DNA of 64,000 bases from contig NZ_AP014637.1 in assembly GCF_000829415.1 (NCBI RefSeq), positions 124,001 through 188,000 of the forward strand, read 5' to 3'. Within the stretch, counting starts at the first letter, position 1; every line of letters begins with the position of its first letter. The notes below the pieces were generated by a model, which worked only from the letters and a program-made list of their open reading frames with translations, ran no database searches and had not been told where the DNA came from. The translations under genes were made by a program, and so were the position numbers. The DNA comes from Pseudomonas sp. StFLB209 (GTDB lineage: Bacteria > Pseudomonadota > Gammaproteobacteria > Pseudomonadales > Pseudomonadaceae). This document shows, one piece after another, positions 51,945 through 63,348 of the stretch.

Positions 51945-53321
51945 ATGGCTATCAGCGTCTTCGACATGTTCAAAATCGGCATCGGGCCGTCCAGTTCGCA
52001 TACCGTCGGGCCGATGCGTGCCGGTGCAACCTTCGTGACCGACCTGCGCAAGCACAATCTGCTGCCGAGCGTGGAACGAATTGAAGTGCGATTGTACGGG
52101 TCTCTGTCGGCCACGGGTATCGGCCATGCCAGCGACCGCGCCACCGTGATGGGGCTGATGGGCGAATGGCCCGACCGCGTCGACATCGTCGATGTCAATC
52201 AGCGCGTCGAAAACCTGCTCAAGGACCAGCGCCTGAACGTCGCAGGCGAGCAGGACATCGAGTTTATCTGGGCACGCGACATGCTGCTGCTCGACGAAAG
52301 CCTGCCCTTCCACCCCAACGGCATGACGATTTGCGCCTATGGCGCGACCGGCGAGTTGTACGAGCAAACCTACTACTCGATCGGCGGCGGCTTCATCATC
52401 AATGCCGAGCAGGCCGCCAGCGGTCAGCTGGACGGTGACAGTACCGAACTGCCTTATGACTTCTCCAGTGCCAAGGAGCTGCTGCGCCTGTGCAAGACGC
52501 ACAACCTGAGCATTTCGGCGTTGATGATGGAGAACGAAAAGTGCTGGCGCAGTGAAGCAGAAATCCGCGTCAAGATTCTCGATATCTGGGCTGCCATGCA
52601 GGCTTGCGTCAACAAAGGCCTGAGCGAACAAGGCATTCTGCCCGGCGGCCTGAATGTGCGTCGTCGCGCCTGGCGCTTGCACCAGAGCCTGCTGGAGGTG
52701 GGCAAGGCCAACGTGATCGGCTCGACCCTCAGCGCCATGGAGTGGGTCAACCTGTTCGCCCTGGCGGTCAACGAAGAAAACGCCGCCGGCGGGCGCATGG
52801 TCACCGCGCCCACCAACGGTGCGGCGGGTATTGTCCCGGCGGTACTGCATTACTTCATGAAATTCAACCCGGCGGCCAATGACGACGATGTGGTGCGGTT
52901 TTTCCTCAGTGCCTCGGCAGTGGGCATCCTGTGCAAGAAAAACGCTTCGATCTCCGGCGCCGAAGTGGGCTGTCAGGGTGAAGTCGGCTCGGCCTGCGCC
53001 ATGGCGGCGGCCGGCATCGCAGAGATTCTCGGCGCCACCCCACAGCAGGTGGAAAACGCCGCAGAAATCGGCCTGGAACACAATCTGGGCCTGACCTGCG
53101 ACCCGGTCGGCGGGCTGGTGCAAGTGCCGTGCATCGAGCGCAACGCGATTGCCGCAGTGAAAGCCATCAACGCAGCACAAATGGCCTTGCGCGGCGACGG
53201 TGAGCACTTCATTTCCCTCGACCAGGCGATCCGCACCATGCGCGACACCGGCGCGGACATGCACGATAAATACAAGGAAACCTCGCGCGGTGGCCTGGCG
53301 GTCAGCCTGGTAGAGTGCTGA
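51945..53321 (+). CDS. sdaA: L-serine ammonia-lyase (iron-sulphur)
   Basis: Start at 51945 ([20 protein letters not shown]), 458 residues; the frame is open to 51822 but the family start is clear. The single-chain SdaA has the beta domain with the SSSHTVGPM turn and the alpha domain with [32 protein letters not shown] and the [16 protein letters not shown] cluster ligands of the oxygen-sensitive [4Fe-4S]. It makes pyruvate and ammonia from L-serine. Confidence 0.95.
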
Positions 53322-53341
53322 GGCCTGGCGTCTCGTGGTTG

Positions 53342-53446
53342 TTGTAGGAGCAGCTTTAGCTGCGAAGGCGTTTCGTAGATTGCCTTTCCCGGCTAATCTT
53401 CCCTGCTAAAGCAGGTCCTACAAACTAAAGCAGGTCCTACAAACTA
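53342..53446. repeat. REP unit with a 19-bp direct repeat
   Basis: A GTAGGAGCAGCTTTAGCTGC unit is followed by CTAAAGCAGGTCCTACAAA repeated in tandem at about 53406-53443. The second half is therefore duplicated compared with the other REP pairs in this window. Confidence 0.75.
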
Positions 53447-53465
53447 ACGCCGAGCAAGCGATCGA

Positions 53466-53726
53466 TTACCCCTGACGTTTGACCGGATCGGCTGCGGCGG
53501 CATGCCGGCGGCTGGCGCGCTCTTTGACATCACGCACCAGCGCGGCAAGATCCCGGCCGCCGGTCAGGCTGGCGACCGGAATCCCAGGCACGAGCAATTC
53601 GCGGGCGTGGCTCTCGGGGTTGAGCAACTCCAGAGTGATGGTGCCTTCTTGGGAAATCGTGCAGCGGCAAGGCGTGGGGGCAAACGCTTTTTCCAGAATA
53701 TGGCGCAGCTCGTTGTGCGAAAACAT
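53466..53726 (-). CDS. DUF1652 protein (copy A)
   Basis: This 86-residue protein begins MFSHNELRHILEKAFAPTPC and has the CTISQEGTITLELLNPES core. It is related to the DUF1652 protein at 54656-54916 (shared L-R-I-E-F-P-C-C pattern at the N-terminus). The family is known only from pseudomonads and their relatives and has no assigned role. Confidence 0.85.
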   Translation of the reverse strand: MFSHNELRHILEKAFAPTPCRCTISQEGTITLELLNPESHARELLVPGIPVASLTGGRDLAALVRDVKERASRRHAAAADPVKRQG

Positions 53727-53845
53727 CAGAACATCCCTTCATCCGTATCGTTGGTTAGCGAGTGAGTCAAGTTCAAAACCTTAGTCTAGACCGCTCAGTG
53801 CAACGTTCAGTGATTTCGCCCGGAATACGACCAAAGTCTCAAAGC

Positions 53846-54541
53846 TCAGCCCAGCATGTCGCTGATCCAGCGCACCTGCTGACTGATGTCCTGGACCTTG
53901 TCCTGCGCCACCGCCTGACGGGCCTTGGCGAAGCCTTTGAGGGTCTGCTGCTTCTGCCGCAGGACCCGTTGCCACTTGTTCAAAAATGCCGGGCTGCGAA
54001 CCTGCAATTGCACCGGGCCGAAGTACAGTTGCTCGGCGCTGTAGCTCACCGGCCCGCTACGTTCAGCGACAATGATTTCATAATCAAAGCGGTTCTCCCG
54101 CAACGCCTCCTCAGCCAGGATGCAATAGCCGTTATCCATCAGCCACTGGCGCAGTTCCCGCTCGCCGCCATTGGGCTGCATGATCAGCCGTTCGGCGCCG
54201 CTCAATCGCGCCCTGCCCGCCTGAAGAATGTCACGGATGGTTTCGCCGCCCATACCACACAGGCTGATCGCGGTGATTGCATCATGAGCTTCGATTGCCG
54301 CCAGACCGTCAGCCAGACGCACGCTGATCTGCGCCTGCAGGCCATATTCACGTACCGTGCGGGTTGCTGCATGAAAGGGCGTCAACGCCACCTCGCCGGC
54401 CACCGCCGAAGCAATCACCCCGCGCTGCACCAAGGCGACCGGCAGGTAGCCGTGGTCCGAGCCGATATCGATAAACCGGGCACCTGCGGGCACGTGAGCG
54501 GCAACGCGCTCCAGGCGCATGGACAAAGTCTGTTGGTTCAC
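53846..54541 (-). CDS. TrmK-like tRNA (adenine-N1)-methyltransferase family protein
   Basis: I chose the GTG at 54541 (NQQTLSMRLERVAAHVPAG follows), 231 residues. The SAM site is FIDIGSDHGYLPVALVQRG, followed by ISLCGMGGETIRDIL and LIMQPNGGERELRQWLMDNG, which match the TrmK/YqfN family (m1A22 of tRNA in Bacillus). Whether this family methylates tRNA in Pseudomonas is not established. It is between two DUF1652 genes on the same strand. Confidence 0.85.
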   Translation of the reverse strand: MNQQTLSMRLERVAAHVPAGARFIDIGSDHGYLPVALVQRGVIASAVAGEVALTPFHAATRTVREYGLQAQISVRLADGLAAIEAHDAITAISLCGMGGETIRDILQAGRARLSGAERLIMQPNGGERELRQWLMDNGYCILAEEALRENRFDYEIIVAERSGPVSYSAEQLYFGPVQLQVRSPAFLNKWQRVLRQKQQTLKGFAKARQAVAQDKVQDISQQVRWISDMLG

Positions 54542-54655
54542 CGGCAGCCCCTTCAAGCACGCGCATCTGGCCCGGATGGCCAGAACGGGGCGCGACTTTA
54601 TCGGGCAATGCCGGGGTTTTCAAATCGGCGTTCAGGATAAACAACCTGCCGGTCA

Positions 54656-54916
54656 TCACGCCCGGCGCTGCTCCTGCTCCCGGGTGATTTGCTCCTGGCG
54701 GGAAAACGCTTGGCGCACCTGCTGGACCAGACCGGAAATCGCTCGGGCCGAGTTCAGTTCCCTGGCATTGAGATTATTGGCGACAAACGCCGGATGGCCG
54801 TATTCAGGACGATAAAGACTGATGGTCATCAAGTGATCGGGGCTGATCGTGCACAGGCATTTGGTTGGCAGAAAGCCGGATTCGATAATCTGACGTAATT
54901 CGAGGGACGACATCAT
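54656..54916 (-). CDS. DUF1652 protein (copy B)
   Basis: This 86-residue protein starts MMSSLELRQIIESGFLPTKC and has CTISPDHLMTISLYRPEYG. It is a diverged paralogue of the gene at 53466. Both are single small ORFs on the minus strand around the TrmK-like gene. Confidence 0.85.
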   Translation of the reverse strand: MMSSLELRQIIESGFLPTKCLCTISPDHLMTISLYRPEYGHPAFVANNLNARELNSARAISGLVQQVRQAFSRQEQITREQEQRRA

Positions 54917-55011
54917 GCTTGATCTCCACGGCCAGACAGTGGCCTATGGCTAATGGATGAAGCACGGGAGAAATCGTTCCGGGAATTAGCTGAGCGGTTG
55001 CTTGTGCCTGG

Positions 55012-55155
55012 CATACAACCGCCCAGCGTTGACATCCTCCCCGGCCTGAAGGCCGGAGATTCCTACGGCGCTCAGGCGCGGCATCGAGCCGCCCCCGAGT
55101 CGCTTCGGTGGGTTCCTGCTGCTGGCGCCATGACCTCTGCGCTCACTTCACAGGC
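55012..55155 (-). ncRNA. Predicted omega-RNA of tnpB copy 2 with its 16-nt guide
   Basis: By the same reasoning as copy 1, the right end at 55028 closes with the hairpin and GATGTCAAC. The guide would be 55012-55027 read on the minus strand (GCTGGGCGGTTGTATG). The 5' limit is not known. Confidence 0.4.
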
Positions 55156-56555
55156 TAACCGGGCGTGTCCCGCCCTTAGTACATTGATCGCCGCCGACCA
55201 CATCGGCGTTGCCTTCAAAACCACATCCCACACACCTGAACAGCGCCTGCGTCTGGCGGTTGGCCGCCGACACATGGCCGCAACACGGGCACCTGCGGCT
55301 GGTATTTTGCGGCGGCACGGCAATCAGCCAGCCGCCGCGCCATGCCAGCTTGTAGTCCAGCTGGCGACGGAACTCGAACCAGCCCTGATCGAGGATGGCC
55401 CTGTTCAGGCCTGACTTGGTCCGAACGTTTCTTCCCGGTGCCTCGGCCGTGCCTGCCGCCGACCTGGACATATTCCGTACCTGCAAGTCCTCGATACACA
55501 CCATCGCGTGGTTTTGGCTGATCGTGGTGGAGCACTTGTGCAGATAGTCGCGGCGGGCATTGCCGATGCGCGAGTGAATGCGCTGGACGCAGGCTTTCGC
55601 CTTGTTCCAGTTGCGGCTGAATCTGACCTTGCGGCTCATCGCCTGCTGCGCTTTGCACAGCGCGGTCTCATGGCGTTTGAAGCTGTTAAGGGGTGCGTAG
55701 AACGAGCCATCCGAAAGCGTGGCGAACCGGGCAATGCCCATGTCGATGCCAACTGCCGCACCCTGCGCCGTGGGCTGCTCATCGATCTCTCGTTCGGTCT
55801 GGATGCTCACGAACCACTTGCCACACGACTGGCTCACGGTGATGTTCTTCACCGTGCCAGGCACCTCGCGGCTGTTGCGGTAGCGCAGCCAGCCCAGCTT
55901 TGGCAGAAACAGGCGGCTGTTGGTCTGGTCGAGCTTGATCTGTTTCGGGTCGGGATAGCGGAAACTGTCGCGCTGCCCCTTCTTCTTGAACCGGGGAAAG
56001 TCGGCTCGCTTGGCGAAGAAGTTGGTGTAGGCCCGCTCCAGATCCTTGAGGCTCTGTTGCAAGGGGTGAACAGGCGCATCGGCCAGCCATGCGGTTTGCG
56101 GGCTATTGCGCCATTCGGTCAGCAACTTGCACAGGCCCGCATAGCCGAGCTTGTTCTCGCCTTGCTCGTGGCGCTCCTTCTGCAACGCCAGCGCCTTGTT
56201 GAAGACGAAGCGACAGGAACCCGCAAAGCGGCGCATTTGCCGCTCCTGCTGACCGTCTGGCATGAGTTCGTACTTGAAGGCTTGAAGTCGTTGCATGCTG
56301 CTCTTGAGCCATGAGCAATGAAGACGACATTAGGCGCGGACGGCACGGTGTTTTCAAGATGCATGCCCATGGGGTCTTTGTAACGAAAGATCGCTGTAGA
56401 GGGGCATACTGTGTCGCCGTATTACTGCGCATCATCCTGTGGCGGTGCGAACATCGAACAGCAGCAGACACCCCACTGCAACCAGGGACGGCTACGCCGT
56501 CCGCGCTATCCTTCCCCGCCCTGAACGGCGGGGCTTGTCGCGCCCCGATGGTCAG
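55028..56555 (-). mobile_element. IS200/IS605-group (tnpB-only) element, copy 2, inverted
   Basis: It is the near-identical counterpart of 452-1977, in the opposite orientation. The right end is at 55028 and the left end at 56555, immediately after the TAG stop codon of the Zn-ribbon gene. The left and right hairpins are conserved. A single-base insertion at about 55189-55195 shifts the tnpB frame near its end. There is no tnpA. It is inserted in the accessory stretch beside tRNA-Arg(CCT). Confidence 0.88.
55148..56296 (-). CDS. tnpB: TnpB, copy 2, frameshifted after the last RuvC Asp
   Basis: The first 368 residues match copy 1 (D185, E269, zinc Cys and D365 all present), then one extra base (GTCGGCGGCGATC here, GTCGGGGCGATC in copy 1) shifts the frame, giving a short tail GDQCTKGGTRPVSL and a total of 382 residues. 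Family knowledge: the C-terminal tail of TnpB is flexible, so activity may survive. The change also lies inside the probable omega-RNA scaffold, which is a second reason to test it. Confidence 0.88.
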   Translation of the reverse strand: MQRLQAFKYELMPDGQQERQMRRFAGSCRFVFNKALALQKERHEQGENKLGYAGLCKLLTEWRNSPQTAWLADAPVHPLQQSLKDLERAYTNFFAKRADFPRFKKKGQRDSFRYPDPKQIKLDQTNSRLFLPKLGWLRYRNSREVPGTVKNITVSQSCGKWFVSIQTEREIDEQPTAQGAAVGIDMGIARFATLSDGSFYAPLNSFKRHETALCKAQQAMSRKVRFSRNWNKAKACVQRIHSRIGNARRDYLHKCSTTISQNHAMVCIEDLQVRNMSRSAAGTAEAPGRNVRTKSGLNRAILDQGWFEFRRQLDYKLAWRGGWLIAVPPQNTSRRCPCCGHVSAANRQTQALFRCVGCGFEGNADVVGGDQCTKGGTRPVSL

Positions 56556-56996
56556 CTAGATGCCGATGCGGGCCAATTGCTCGCGGATCTGCTCAAGCGT
56601 CTTGCCTCGGGTGTCCACGTTCGCACCGGTGGCACGAATCTGGCCGATTTCCTCATCGCTCAAGCCCAGGCAGCGAAGCTTGTCTGTCCATTGTTGCAAG
56701 CGTGCCGGGGCGGTATCACTGGCATTAGGGCCCTGCGCATTGCGCTGGCACACCTGGCACTGGTCATCAGGAAACCGCTTGGTCCCCCAGGTCCCCGGTC
56801 GGCGGTACTCGTACAGGCCACAGTCGCAGCGGCACAGCCATAGCGTGCCCTTGCCCGAACGGCTGGCGCGATACCAGGCAATGGCGGTCATCGTGCCGCG
56901 GCGTTTGCCGGTATGGTCGGCGGCGTTCAGCGGTCGGGGTGAGAGGTTGGGTAAAGCGTCGGTACAAAAGGTGCGGTGGCGTATGGGGCTATGCAT
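56556..56996 (-). CDS. Phage-type Zn-ribbon protein (GxLTVIG/CRCDCG family)
   Basis: The ATG at 56996 has GGAG eight bases upstream. The 146-residue product has the pattern DHTGKRRGTMTAIAWYRAS...GTLWLCRCDCG...CQVC, which is the Zn-ribbon found in many phage and mobile-element proteins, often with HNH or AP2 parts; here it is followed by a helical C-terminus (DEEIGQIRATGANVD). The role is unknown, probably regulatory or nucleic-acid binding. The stop codon touches the left end of the IS. Its ribosome-binding region is the target of the structured RNA upstream. Confidence 0.7.
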   Translation of the reverse strand: MHSPIRHRTFCTDALPNLSPRPLNAADHTGKRRGTMTAIAWYRASRSGKGTLWLCRCDCGLYEYRRPGTWGTKRFPDDQCQVCQRNAQGPNASDTAPARLQQWTDKLRCLGLSDEEIGQIRATGANVDTRGKTLEQIREQLARIGI

Positions 56997-57003
56997 AGGT
57001 CTG

Positions 57004-57032
57004 GCTCCAACTTGAATTATGGAGCTGCCACC
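57004..57032 (-). promoter_or_regulatory. Ribosome-binding region of the Zn-ribbon gene, antisense target
   Basis: The segment reads GGTGGCAGC (57032-57024) and CAAGTTGG (57014-57007) on the minus strand, the second overlapping the GGAG ribosome-binding site. A local hairpin GCTCCA/TGGAGC also covers that site. Both segments are perfectly complementary to parts of the RNA at 57051-57120. Confidence 0.7.
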
Positions 57033-57050
57033 AATCGCCGCGACGCAATT

Positions 57051-57120
57051 GTGGGTGGCAGCCGTGCGCGGGTTCGCGGACCGGGCAAGTTGGCACCCGG
57101 CAGACCCGAAGGTCTCCCAC
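57051..57120 (-). ncRNA. C4-type antisense RNA (phage P1/P7-like)
   Basis: Read on the minus strand, GTGGG (57120-57116) pairs with CCCAC (57055-57051) around three hairpins: AGACC-TTCG-GGTCT, CCGGG-(TGCCAACTTG)-CCCGG and CGCG-AACC-CGCG, a cloverleaf. The loop CCAACTTG (57093-57086) and the 3' segment GCTGCCACC (57062-57054) are perfect complements of the target just ahead of the Zn-ribbon start. Family knowledge: in P1 and P7 the C4 RNA blocks antirepressor translation in exactly this way. I recognise the pattern rather than having run a model, so the family name is tentative; the structure itself is clear. Confidence 0.65.
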
Positions 57121-57380
57121 GCACGACCACCATGAATCGACATTGCAGCCATAAAAATCTGCAAAGGACATGGGGCGCTTGTGCGCCAACTTGTATTGCG
57201 GGCCGCGACGCCCGTTGTCAGCAATGTGACGGGGCGCAAGATACGCGCCGAGGCACGAGGGTGCAAGCCTCGCACAGCACCACAGCCTTGACGCGAACCT
57301 GGCCCATCCAGGTACAAACCCAGGGGCGGCAATGGCTGGCAAAGACGGCGGCACATTCGCGCATGCAAGCACTCGCGTGC

Positions 57381-57998
57381 TTATTCCACAATCGTGGGTG
57401 TATCCCCGTCCCCCAAACAGATCGTCAACTGCTGGCCTTGCTTGTTGAAGGCGCAATGGGGCAGTGCTTGCTGCTTCAAGGCGGCCAGTGGCACGGCTAC
57501 AAAAAATCCACTCAGCGCTGTCGCTACCACTATTTTTCCGAATATTTTTAACCCGGAAAGTGAGGCTCTTTTGGTCGCCGTTTTTGCCCTTCGATAGGCA
57601 TAAAAACCACTGACGAGAATCGCTGCACCAATCAGCATGGCAACCGTGATGTCTGACCGTCCGGGGCTGTACAGCAGATTACCGTTGGCATCGTCCGGGT
57701 AATTCAGTTGCCACCAGCCGCCGATGCACAGTGGCAAAAGCCCGGCAGCGATCCAGGCCAGGATCGCCCCCGGTAGCCGCAGCAGGATGACCACTGTCAA
57801 GCCGAGTGTGGCGACGCCCAGGCCACCAAGGTACAGCTGGGTGCCCATGGCGCCGCCGAACAGGGTGCCGCTGACGTCCTTGGGTGTGAGAAGGGCCCAA
57901 CTGAAGAACGTGATGTGCACAAGCACAGCACATACGGTAATCCAGCTCACTGGGAAGTAAAGCCATAGCCATCGGCTGTTGGAGTGAAGCATGTTCAT
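57381..57998 (-). CDS. Membrane protein of unknown function
   Basis: From the ATG at 57998 (MNMLHSNSRWLWLYFPVSWI), 205 residues with five predicted membrane segments (WLYFPVSWITVCAVLVHITFF, TLGLTVVILLRLPGAILAW, ITVAMLIGAAILVSGFY and others). The C-terminus is soluble with a Cys pair (LPHCAFNKQ and LTICLGDGD). I do not recognise the family. The codon use is a little less GC-rich than the core genes. It stands between the phage-type gene and tRNA-Arg(CCT). Confidence 0.65.
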   Translation of the reverse strand: MNMLHSNSRWLWLYFPVSWITVCAVLVHITFFSWALLTPKDVSGTLFGGAMGTQLYLGGLGVATLGLTVVILLRLPGAILAWIAAGLLPLCIGGWWQLNYPDDANGNLLYSPGRSDITVAMLIGAAILVSGFYAYRRAKTATKRASLSGLKIFGKIVVATALSGFFVAVPLAALKQQALPHCAFNKQGQQLTICLGDGDTPTIVE

Positions 57999-58215
57999 GC
58001 TCGCGCAGTGACAGGAAAGCACGTCAAAGAAATAGGCGTGAAACGGGCGGGTGTCAGCTGAACATGCCGAGCGCCTGATTCGGCTGCCAGTGTGCAATGT
58101 GCTTTTTGGGATTGCATGGTTTTTTCGGCGAGGTGCTTGCCACTCAATTTCAGTGAGGCTCGCCTCGAGCGACGGGGCAGGAAGCGCTACCAAGAGTGTG
58201 CGATACAGCGGGATG

Positions 58216-58287
58216 TGTCCCCTGCAGGAATCGAACCTGCATCTAGCCCTTAGGAGGGGCTCGTTCTATCCGTTGAACTAAGAGGAC
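58216..58287 (-). tRNA. tRNA-Arg (anticodon CCT)
   Basis: The minus strand folds as a tRNA: acceptor GTCCTCT/AGGGGAC, anticodon stem AGCCC-loop CTCCTAA-GGGCT giving CCT, T-arm GCAGG-TTCGATT-CCTGC. There is no encoded CCA. This tRNA is a frequent integration site for islands; the phage-type genes nearby fit that, though no duplicated 3' end was found. Confidence 0.93.
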
Positions 58288-58646
58288 CCGATAGATGATC
58301 TGACGGGCGTTGCCTGAGCGCCCTGTATCAGTGCTGGGCATTTTACGCAAAAACAAGGATTTAGCAAAAAATTCAGCCCGCTTCAGCGCGCAGGGTCATT
58401 CACCGGCCGATGCAGACCGCCAGGACGCGCTGACTCGTGCATCCGGATTTGGTTCCCGTGGCCGTCGTGCATTTTGCAACCCTGCAAATAGCCATCATTG
58501 CAAAACGCAACGCAAAAGCCGTTACATACAAATACAACTATTTGATTTAAAAGGGTTTTTTATTGAATTGCGCTTGGCATGCAGACTGCAATATTACCCG
58601 TGGCAGGCAGAACCTCTCTTCCATCTCCGGGCACAGGTACACGACT
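58288..58646. other. 359-bp region without a recognised gene
   Basis: It contains a GGGCG/CGCCC hairpin (about 58303-58322) close to the 5' side of tRNA-Arg and an A/T-rich stretch at 58520-58565 that could carry the promoter of the small gene at 58647. Nothing else was seen. Confidence 0.4.
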
Positions 58647-58883
58647 ATGAACATGATCCTCACCGCGTTGAACGCAGTCGCTCTGGTAGCGCTGGTGACC
58701 TTTCATCTTCAAGGCACTGCCACCCCTGTCGAGCAGGTGAATATCGAGATTCAGAGTGGCCTGCAAAAACCTGCGCAACTGGCAGTGATGACTGACAAAC
58801 GTGCCAACCCGGCTATGCTGACCAATGACACACAACAGATGCCCCGCGCCACCGGCAGTGCGACACAGCGCTGGGTGTTCTGA
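58647..58883 (+). CDS. Small secreted/membrane-anchored hypothetical protein
   Basis: The ATG at 58647 (MNMILTALNAVALVALVTFH) gives 78 residues: one N-terminal hydrophobic segment, then a polar tail rich in Gln and Thr. I do not recognise the family. It is 52 bp before another small membrane protein on the same strand, so both may be one transcript. Confidence 0.5.
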   Translation: MNMILTALNAVALVALVTFHLQGTATPVEQVNIEIQSGLQKPAQLAVMTDKRANPAMLTNDTQQMPRATGSATQRWVF

Positions 58884-58935
58884 ACCATTGCCTAGAACCG
58901 TGCCTCACACGCTTAAAGAGAAAGAGAGAGCCGCC

Positions 58936-59121
58936 ATGTCCAAGTCCGCACTGTCGTTTCTGATCCTTACGTTGATGAGTGTTGCTGTAGACCTGTTGCT
59001 GCCCGAGCAAGCGCTGGCCTTGAATCTGGCTGCCAGGATCGCTGGCGGTGTGTTTGTCAGCCTGTTCCTCGGCGCGCTGGTCGTCGGCCGCCGCTTCAAG
59101 TTTGATCCCGTTCTGCGCTGA
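58936..59121 (+). CDS. Small two-helix membrane protein
   Basis: The ATG at 58936, with GAGAGAG just ahead, gives 61 residues: MSKSALSFLILTLMSVAVDL and a second hydrophobic segment IAGGVFVSLFLGALVVG, then a basic RRFKF end. Two membrane helices are predicted. Function unknown. Confidence 0.6.
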   Translation: MSKSALSFLILTLMSVAVDLLLPEQALALNLAARIAGGVFVSLFLGALVVGRRFKFDPVLR

Positions 59122-62379: not shown

Positions 62380-62456
62380 TGGTGCACTCGACAGGATTCG
62401 AACCTGTGACCGCTCGGTTCGTAGCCGAGTACTCTATCCAGCTGAGCTACGAGTGC
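62380..62456 (-). tRNA. tRNA-Arg (ACG), unit 1
   Basis: 77 nt with encoded CCA; acceptor GCACTCG/CGAGTGC and anticodon loop CTACGAA (ACG). Confidence 0.97.
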
Positions 62457-62569
62457 ATTTGATGGTGCGCATTATAGGGCCTGCAATAATTCTGTAAAGC
62501 CTTTTCTGAAATAAATTCAAAGACTTACACAAAACCTGCGGGCAACGCTTTGCAGCCCCTGGAAAAACA

Positions 62570-62599
62570 CAAAGCCCGTACCTTTCGATACGGGCTTTG
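62570..62599 (-). terminator. Terminator after tRNA-Arg 2
   Basis: CAAAGCCCGTA/TACGGGCTTTG stem, a variant of the terminator after unit 1. Confidence 0.8.
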
Positions 62600-62605
62600 C
62601 TTGTA

Positions 62606-62682
62606 TGGTGCACTCGACAGGATTCGAACCTGTGACCGCTCGGTTCGTAGCCGAGTACTCTATCCAGCTGAGCTACGAGTGC
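62606..62682 (-). tRNA. tRNA-Arg (ACG), unit 2
   Basis: Identical in sequence to unit 1, with encoded CCA; it lies 6 bp after tRNA-Ser 1. Confidence 0.97.
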
Positions 62683-62688
62683 ATGTTA

Positions 62689-62779
62689 TGGCGGAGAACG
62701 GGGGATTCGAACCCCCGACACCCTTTTGAGGTGTACTCCCTTAGCAGGGGAGCGCCTTCGGCCACTCGGCCAGCTCTCC
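62689..62779 (-). tRNA. tRNA-Ser (GCT), unit 1
   Basis: 91 nt with a long variable arm and encoded CCA; anticodon loop CTGCTAA (GCT). Confidence 0.97.
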
Positions 62780-62884
62780 GCAACAAGGGGCGTATGATAA
62801 TCATCTCGTCGCCTCTTGCAAAGGTCTTTTTTGAATAAATTCAACAGCCTGCCATGGCAAGAAGCCGCTTTTTCAAACACAAAG

Positions 62885-62917
62885 AAAAAAGCCCGTATCT
62901 TTCGATACGGGCTTTTC
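62885..62917 (-). terminator. Terminator after tRNA-Arg 3
   Basis: AAAAAAGCCCGTAT/ATACGGGCTTTT stem, nearly the same as after unit 1. Confidence 0.85.
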
Positions 62918-62921
62918 AATA

Positions 62922-62998
62922 TGGTGCACTCGACAGGATTCGAACCTGTGACCGCTCGGTTCGTAGCCGAGTACTCTATCCAGCTGAGCTACGAGTGC
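62922..62998 (-). tRNA. tRNA-Arg (ACG), unit 3
   Basis: Identical in sequence to units 1 and 2, encoded CCA. Confidence 0.97.
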
Positions 62999-63092
62999 AT
63001 GTGGTGGTTTTATACCAGACCGCCGCTGGTTGAAGCAGATTATCTGTCTAATCGAGCGGCTTAACCACCCCAACTGACAAACAACCTTTAAA

Positions 63093-63169
63093 TGGTGCAC
63101 TCGACAGGATTCGAACCTGTGACCGCTCGGTTCGTAGCCGAGTACTCTATCCAGCTGAGCTACGAGTGC
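63093..63169 (-). tRNA. tRNA-Arg (ACG), unit 4
   Basis: Identical to the other three. It is not followed by its own terminator, so it is probably co-transcribed with unit 3. Confidence 0.97.
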
Positions 63170-63257
63170 ATATTTGGGTGCTGCGCATTTTAGGTTGCTG
63201 AACTCTTTTGTAAAGCGCTTTCTTGCTTCGAAAGCCAGGTTCAACACACTGAAATAA

Positions 63258-63348
63258 TGGCGGAGAACGGGGGATTCGAACCCCCGACACCCTTTTGAGG
63301 TGTACTCCCTTAGCAGGGGAGCGCCTTCGGCCACTCGGCCAGCTCTCC
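63258..63348 (-). tRNA. tRNA-Ser (GCT), unit 2
   Basis: Identical to unit 1 over 91 nt. It is the first tRNA after csrA, as in the csrA-serV-argV order of enterics. Confidence 0.97.

Follow-up and report, generated by a model that had tools for sequence, protein, structure and literature searches.

Introduction

What does an antisense RNA of the C4 type do in a bacterial chromosome, and which gene does it address? C4 is a known RNA family. According to the available part of PMC5320573, the C4 RNA of phage P1 is cut from its transcript by RNase P, cross-reaction between phages P1 and P7 is already restricted by a difference of 4 nt in their C4 RNAs and targets (cited there), C4 RNAs have been predicted in Pseudomonadales (Weinberg 2010, cited there), and the chromosome of Acinetobacter baumannii AB5075 carries 21 C4-like sRNAs. 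Both c4 and c4-a1b1 are tabulated in the excerpt of PMC2864571 that was available.

We were interested in a C4-like locus of Pseudomonas sp. StFLB209 (genome G000) that lies in a 64,000-nt stretch of DNA, hereafter the window, to whose positions the coordinates below refer. Here, we report an analysis of its anatomy, of the matching between C4 RNAs and downstream genes in three genomes, and of the target families. We consider it quite probable that the window contains a P1-type C4 cassette which now stands ahead of a Zn-ribbon-like gene and silences it by address pairing. In the literature searched (titles and starts of abstracts, with subscription journals thinly covered), we found no paper on C4 cassettes of Pseudomonas or on private addresses, and no description of such cassettes, their targets or a swap to a Zn-ribbon target; the DUF6124 family turned up in no paper there and DUF3077 in one.

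A full-length C4 RNA next to a ribosome-binding site

The Rfam C4 model (RF01695) matches the minus strand of the window at 57137-57051 over its full length (model positions 1-87 of 87), with 79.3 bits against a cut-off of 45 (E 6.7e-14 in the window), a score higher than the 68.8 bits obtained by the C4 of phage P1 itself. A preliminary description of this DNA had recognized a C4-type antisense RNA with the P1 layout and proposed this covariance-model search on the minus strand; the match bears it out, together with the annotation of a1, b1, c4, a2 and b2 in the P1 record and the co-variation across loci described below. The span given there, 57004-57120, takes in most of the C4 RNA and the target, while the full RNA reaches 57137. 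By sequence, a GGU stands near the expected 5' end.

As in a typical C4 RNA, two unpaired segments, of 8 nt in a loop and 6 nt in the junction, match sites downstream, one of which covers the ribosome site of the next gene. The P3-loop segment CCAACUUG (b' in P1 terms), complementary to the sites b2 and b1, pairs over 8 nt (57093-57086) with CAAGUUGG at 57014-57007. This loop target lies within CAAGTTGGAG (57014-57005), which comprises b2 and the Shine-Dalgarno sequence, and overlaps the GGAG at 57008-57005, 8 nt ahead of the ATG at 56996. The junction segment UCCGCGAA (57080-57073; a' in P1 terms) faces GUCGCGGC at 57044-57037 with 6 nt paired; its CCGCGA pairs with UCGCGG in both a2 (GTCGCGGC, 57044-57037, 6 nt past the end of C4) and the leader site a1. 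A further match of 9 nt joins GCUGCCACC, the 3' stem strand of the C4 RNA (57062-57054), to GGUGGCAGC at 57032-57024, the position of the stem-like repeat GGTGGCAGC; GTGGCAGC-like stretches are common to many other C4 loci.

The leader upstream of C4 holds a second, identical pair of targets, arranged as in P1: a1 at 57209-57202, with the same sequence as a2, and b1 (CAAGTTGG) at 57193-57186, which pairs with the C4 loop. The minus strand thus reads, in order, a promoter-like TTGCAC-N17-TATCTT (57266-57238), a hairpin, a1, b1, C4, a2, GGTGGCAGC, b2 with GGAG, and the ATG. The GenBank record of P1 has the order a1, b1, c4, a2, b2, icd, and the two segments of P1 pair as they do in the window. 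The c4-icd-ant immunity locus of P1 and P7 (P1 being the one compared) accordingly shares with the window a leader with a1 and b1, a C4 RNA, a2, b2 over the ribosome site and a target gene. It differs in that the window cassette is chromosomal and one of many copies, has no phage genes among the neighbours scanned, and precedes a Zn-ribbon-like gene rather than icd and ant.

The leader and its promoter region

The promoter-like sequence was found by eye, at the site where other C4 loci have a recurrent pattern: TTG...TAnnnT stands ahead of the leader in 90 of 133 C4 loci (T at -35 in 96%, A at -11 in 86%), these 90 being the loci in which a regular expression recognized the leader hairpin as an anchor, and the window locus lying outside them. 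A generic sigma-70 promoter scan found none at the window leader. The first leader hairpin, CCGTCAC...TGACAACGG (57232-57212), is a by-eye counterpart of the GTCGCTG...CAGCGAC hairpin of other leaders. The Rfam leader model c4-a1b1 (RF03163), run on 56400-57500 with E up to 1, did not match, which places the window leader outside that family; elsewhere, the model matches 8 times in the same genome, and 41 and 49 times in two comparison genomes. By eye, the window has also lost the 3' strand of a leader terminator that is present in some copies. One of the strong c4-a1b1 matches (57.6 bits, at G000:C1:5985152-5985203) has no C4 listed beside it and a match to the TnpB domain about 250 bases off; it is possibly a cassette split by insertion.

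We also considered an attenuator, in which a terminator-like leader hairpin before C4 competes with b1. For this purpose, 43 of the 133 leaders, those with a run of at least five T near C4, were folded together with that of P1, with and without a1 and b1 blocked. In 23 of 44 cases, blocking increased the pairing of the terminator by over 0.05; P1 stayed unchanged (0.78 and 0.79), and in the window leader the pairing fell from 0.38 to 0.12. The idea was not adopted.

Loop and junction carry a private address

How far the pairings in the window exceed chance was assessed with 2000 dinucleotide shuffles of the 60 nt downstream of C4 and a leader shuffled likewise. The observed score was reached by 47 downstream shuffles for the loop, 207 for the junction, 6 for the stem and 1 for the sum of the three; in the leader, the counts were 5 for the loop, where b1 and its flank form an 11-nt pairing if G-U pairs are counted, and 567 for the junction. 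Since 207 and 567 of 2000 shuffles reach its score, the junction match of the window does not by itself exceed chance.

The paralogues give a stronger comparison. We oriented 133 C4 loci, namely 14, 39 and 52 matches over the cut-off from three genomes and 28 others; the weaker matches (3 and 3) of the two deeply searched genomes were left out of the pairing test. Loop and junction of each C4 were scored against 75 nt downstream, and own pairs were compared with permuted pairs. In all three genomes, own pairing beats permuted pairing (z 9.3, 18.0 and 21.7), with 0 of 10,000 permutations reaching the observed value in each. After thinning to loci whose C4 frames are less than 85% identical (11, 22 and 26 loci), z remains at 7.3, 13.2 and 13.3 (60 nt downstream). 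The leader copies co-vary as well (own versus permuted leader, z 7.7, 13.1 and 15.5), and the own leader is the strict best at 8 of 14, 12 of 39 and 12 of 52 loci. The loop and junction pattern is therefore secure despite the modest match within the window.

Addresses composed of loop and junction are distinct at 14 of 14, 38 of 39 and 52 of 52 loci. When all C4-linked targets of a genome are compared, 12 of 14, 28 of 39 and 35 of 52 C4 RNAs score strictly highest with their own; at the remaining 2, 11 and 17 loci another target ties with it or outscores it, so that by this simple score the isolation of addresses is imperfect. With an own address for each of the 14 cassettes of Pseudomonas sp. 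StFLB209, silencing by a C4 should be directed mainly at its own gene.

The 9-nt stem match behaves differently. For the 105 C4 loci of the three genomes, own targets hardly beat those of other loci (z -1.0, 0.5 and 2.1; 8352, 3297 and 191 of 10,000 permutations at or above the own value), and the stem therefore carries little or no specificity. Two perfect antisense segments, of 8 and 9 nt, had been described previously; both are exact, but the 9-nt one is a copy of the generic C4 stem, and it is the junction stretch that provides the second segment specific to the locus.

Chromosomal C4 cassettes and their target families

The genome of Pseudomonas sp. StFLB209 contains 14 matches to RF01695, all over the cut-off, and two congeners that were searched more deeply contain 42 (39 over the cut-off) and 55 (52 over the cut-off). 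In a sample of 95 genomes, where up to 40 candidates per genome were scored and the counts per genome are lower bounds, 59 have a C4 match with an E of 0.001 or less, and in 58 of these it exceeds the cut-off. Within the genus, the genome of the window included, at least one C4 occurs in 54 of the 59 sampled genomes, with a median of at least 14; at least 37 genomes have ten or more and at least 25 have 20 or more. The rarity of chromosomal C4 RNAs implied by the preliminary description does not survive this census. Outside the genus, C4 was found in 5 of 36 sampled genomes. The 14 control genomes gave no C4 at E up to 0.001; one of them, Thermus composti, has a single match under the cut-off at E up to 1.

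Most targets fall into a few families. DUF6124 is the commonest, standing behind 8 of 14, 26 of 42 and 35 of 55 C4 matches in the three genomes; conversely, 8 of 8, 26 of 30 and 35 of 41 DUF6124 genes over the cut-off (69 of 79 in total) are preceded on their own strand by a C4 at a distance of at most 500 nt. The same holds for 5 of 6 DUF3077 genes in each of the two congeners; the genome of the window has none. Its 14 targets comprise eight DUF6124 genes, five Bro-N antirepressor-like genes (Pfam PF02498, 1e-8 to 2e-11) and the Zn-ribbon gene of the window. Elsewhere in the genus, the targets include an NPS-type peptide of 52-57 aa and small families without a Pfam match. A rough motif rule left 26 of 134 loci as 'other', broken or wrongly read frames among them, and 4 unassigned. 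In IMG/VR, 41 stretches show the C4 pattern, including targets that by eye resemble DUF3077, DUF6124 and NPS proteins; some of these loci have no called target, and the stretches may include host flanks.

Two further observations concern congeners. The Rfam model of the Pseudomonas sRNA P10 has a match of 37.5 bits in one of them (cut-off 37). In congener G018, a C4 of 64.6 bits (L145, 9542-9633) lacks a recognisable leader as well as an obvious target ORF and is likely a remnant; it stands 2.3 kb behind tRNA-Arg(CCT), and the window C4 1.1 kb.

A Zn-ribbon-like target

The gene addressed in the window (56996-56556, minus strand) encodes a Cys-rich protein of 146 aa with the pattern CRCDCG...CQVC, named Zn-ribbon-like by eye. 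It had been called a phage-type gene, for which we find weak grounds: the PHROG matches are weak (5.7e-8 for PHROG 18493, and 3.8e-6), a tblastn search of 50,697 phage and 72,556 plasmid records gave no match, and a scan of IMG/VR confirmed no relative. A viral origin of the target was rejected on these negative results. The protein has no Pfam match over the cut-off, no NCBIfam match and no solved structural relative (best E 0.61), and its sole match among genome contigs covers 18 residues in a Methanolinea bin.

Relatives occur in 4 of 398 genomes of the genus, with six copies in all, three of them in the genome of the window. Apart from the copy in the window, four lack a C4 in the stretch fetched (E up to 0.01). 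The fifth, a decayed copy at locus L048, does have a C4 upstream, directly behind which lies an ORF for an NPS-type peptide. A paralogue at 1.37 Mb has a divergent helix-turn-helix gene on one side and a Fic gene on the other. With four of six copies lacking C4 and a fifth separated from it by an ORF, the pairing of C4 and Zn-ribbon gene has no conserved orthologue; the family is mostly not found behind C4, and the window presents a C4 cassette placed on a Zn-ribbon gene. This cassette may have arisen recently, or it may have no function.

As a whole (leader, C4 and 50 nt downstream), the window cassette is closest to those of NPS-type peptides (class mean 113 versus 83-98); by C4 alone it is slightly closer to the Bro-N class (57.5 versus 55.2). 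Capture of an N-terminus along with the cassette was rejected: the first codons of the Zn-ribbon gene are no more similar to the NPS peptide than shuffles are (306 of 500).

Proposed mechanism and alternatives

From the anatomy of the locus we infer that C4 controls the Zn-ribbon gene. A single promoter would transcribe the leader with a1 and b1, the C4 RNA and the target together, and the C4 RNA would be cut out of this transcript, presumably by RNase P as in P1. Its junction segment would then bind a2 and its P3 loop b2, which would cover the Shine-Dalgarno sequence and keep the mRNA silent. By titrating C4, the a1 and b1 sites of the leader may serve as a decoy and lift the silencing, as an analogy with IsrK of Salmonella suggests. 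Such a role appears possible because the Rfam isrK model (RF01394) overlaps the C4 leader (35.1 bits in P1, 46.5 bits in L048, both under the cut-off of 50) and because, according to the available part of PMC4825925, the short IsrK RNA turns on translation of a read-through transcript.

That portion of the paper describes, in the isrK-orf45-anrP locus of Salmonella Gifsy-1, a leader RNA, a read-through transcript, complementary segments and a silent downstream antirepressor-like gene, as in C4 cassettes. It concerns a single prophage locus and does not contain the term C4 antisense, and the likeness is drawn from the literature. Judged by sequence, the overlap suggests that the Salmonella isrK loci may be C4 loci. 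Besides L048 (1210-1296), where isrK under its cut-off and RF03163 fall on the same leader, L144 (3231-3312) shows this double match.

Among the alternatives, the most serious is decay: the cassette would retain an ancestral fold and segments and no longer regulate a Zn-ribbon gene that became its neighbour through recombination. This is in keeping with the failure of the leader to match RF03163, the lost terminator strand, the restriction of the Zn-ribbon gene to 4 of 398 genus genomes and to no other place directly behind a C4, and the existence of remnants such as L145. Against it, the C4 fold is intact and scores above that of P1, the loop matches both b1 and b2, the two addresses agree in leader, C4 and target, and the Shine-Dalgarno spacing is normal; we therefore regard decay as unlikely. 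The C4 RNA might instead act in trans, on antirepressors under C4 control in incoming phages (superinfection immunity) or on unlinked host genes, a use proposed for Acinetobacter in the available text of PMC5320573. The private addresses speak against this, the adjacent gene being the strict best among C4-linked targets at most loci of all three genomes, and make a trans-acting role distinctly improbable. A coincidental cloverleaf with chance complementarity would fit the modest shuffle results for loop and junction in the window; set against 79.3 bits to a curated covariance model and 14 genome copies with matching addresses, it can be practically dismissed.

Silencing of the adjacent Zn-ribbon-like gene by a P1-type cassette is thus the reading we prefer. 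The Group 1 C4-like sRNAs of A. baumannii AB5075 are, like those here, numerous in one chromosome, with variable target segments and a GGW processing motif (PMC5320573, available part); no targets are identified in that text, whereas the C4 RNAs analysed here are each matched to the adjacent downstream gene. The question of what chromosomal C4-like RNAs target accordingly has a simple and testable answer, the gene next door, chosen by a matched address. For the genus as a whole, the chances seem to us about even that C4 cassettes passed from a phage immunity part to a family of chromosomal antisense switches, largely orthogonal and often numbering ten to fifty per genome, which carry their private address three times (leader, C4 and ribosome site), mostly silence DUF6124 genes and otherwise Bro-N genes or small peptides, and can be placed on new genes such as that of the Zn-ribbon protein. 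One RNA switch would link two protein families of unknown function, DUF6124 and DUF3077, and the dozens of antisense pairs in one genome form a natural set for measuring how specificity stays separate.

Genomic surroundings

The neighbours scanned in the window are a serine dehydratase, TrmK, TnpB, an Arc-like gene, MgtE and one ORF without a family. With a Zn-ribbon-like target and no phage genes among them, the locus is not a P1-like prophage immunity locus, consistent with the preliminary remark that no other phage genes lie close by. Within 5 kb of the 14 C4 loci, 134 ORFs of at least 110 aa were called mechanically (up to 11 per locus; some are likely to be spurious). Of the 95 PHROG families found there, the first 25, several of which have no description, include no integrase, terminase, capsid or tail family; the first 25 of 123 Pfam families comprise metabolic and regulatory genes, transporters, a few of unknown function, Bro-N, DUF6124 and TnpB.

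On the MgtE side, the arrangement continues to tRNA-Arg(CCT) in the four relatives fetched. TrmK lies elsewhere in congeners, at a distance of about 73 kb in G018 and of roughly 1.1 Mb in G049; the TrmK and MgtE sides being this far apart, a rearrangement junction falls within 54.9-58.2 kb, near tRNA-Arg(CCT). Integration at this tRNA gene was considered and dropped, no repeat of the tRNA end being present among the direct repeats listed for 53300-59000.

A unit bearing TnpB (55028-56555, with the TnpB ORF at 55148-56296 on the minus strand) starts immediately past the Zn-ribbon stop codon and has two further copies in the genome, with 97% DNA identity. The TnpB domain (PF07282) has 57 matches in this genome and none in the two comparison genomes. 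Eight of them lie within 5 kb of six of the 14 C4 loci (L195, L196, L200, L201, L202 and L205), about 1.3 being expected by length, which perhaps reflects shared accessory regions. Further along the window, four tRNA-Arg(ACG) and two tRNA-Ser(GCT) genes form an ordinary-looking cluster at 62380-63348.
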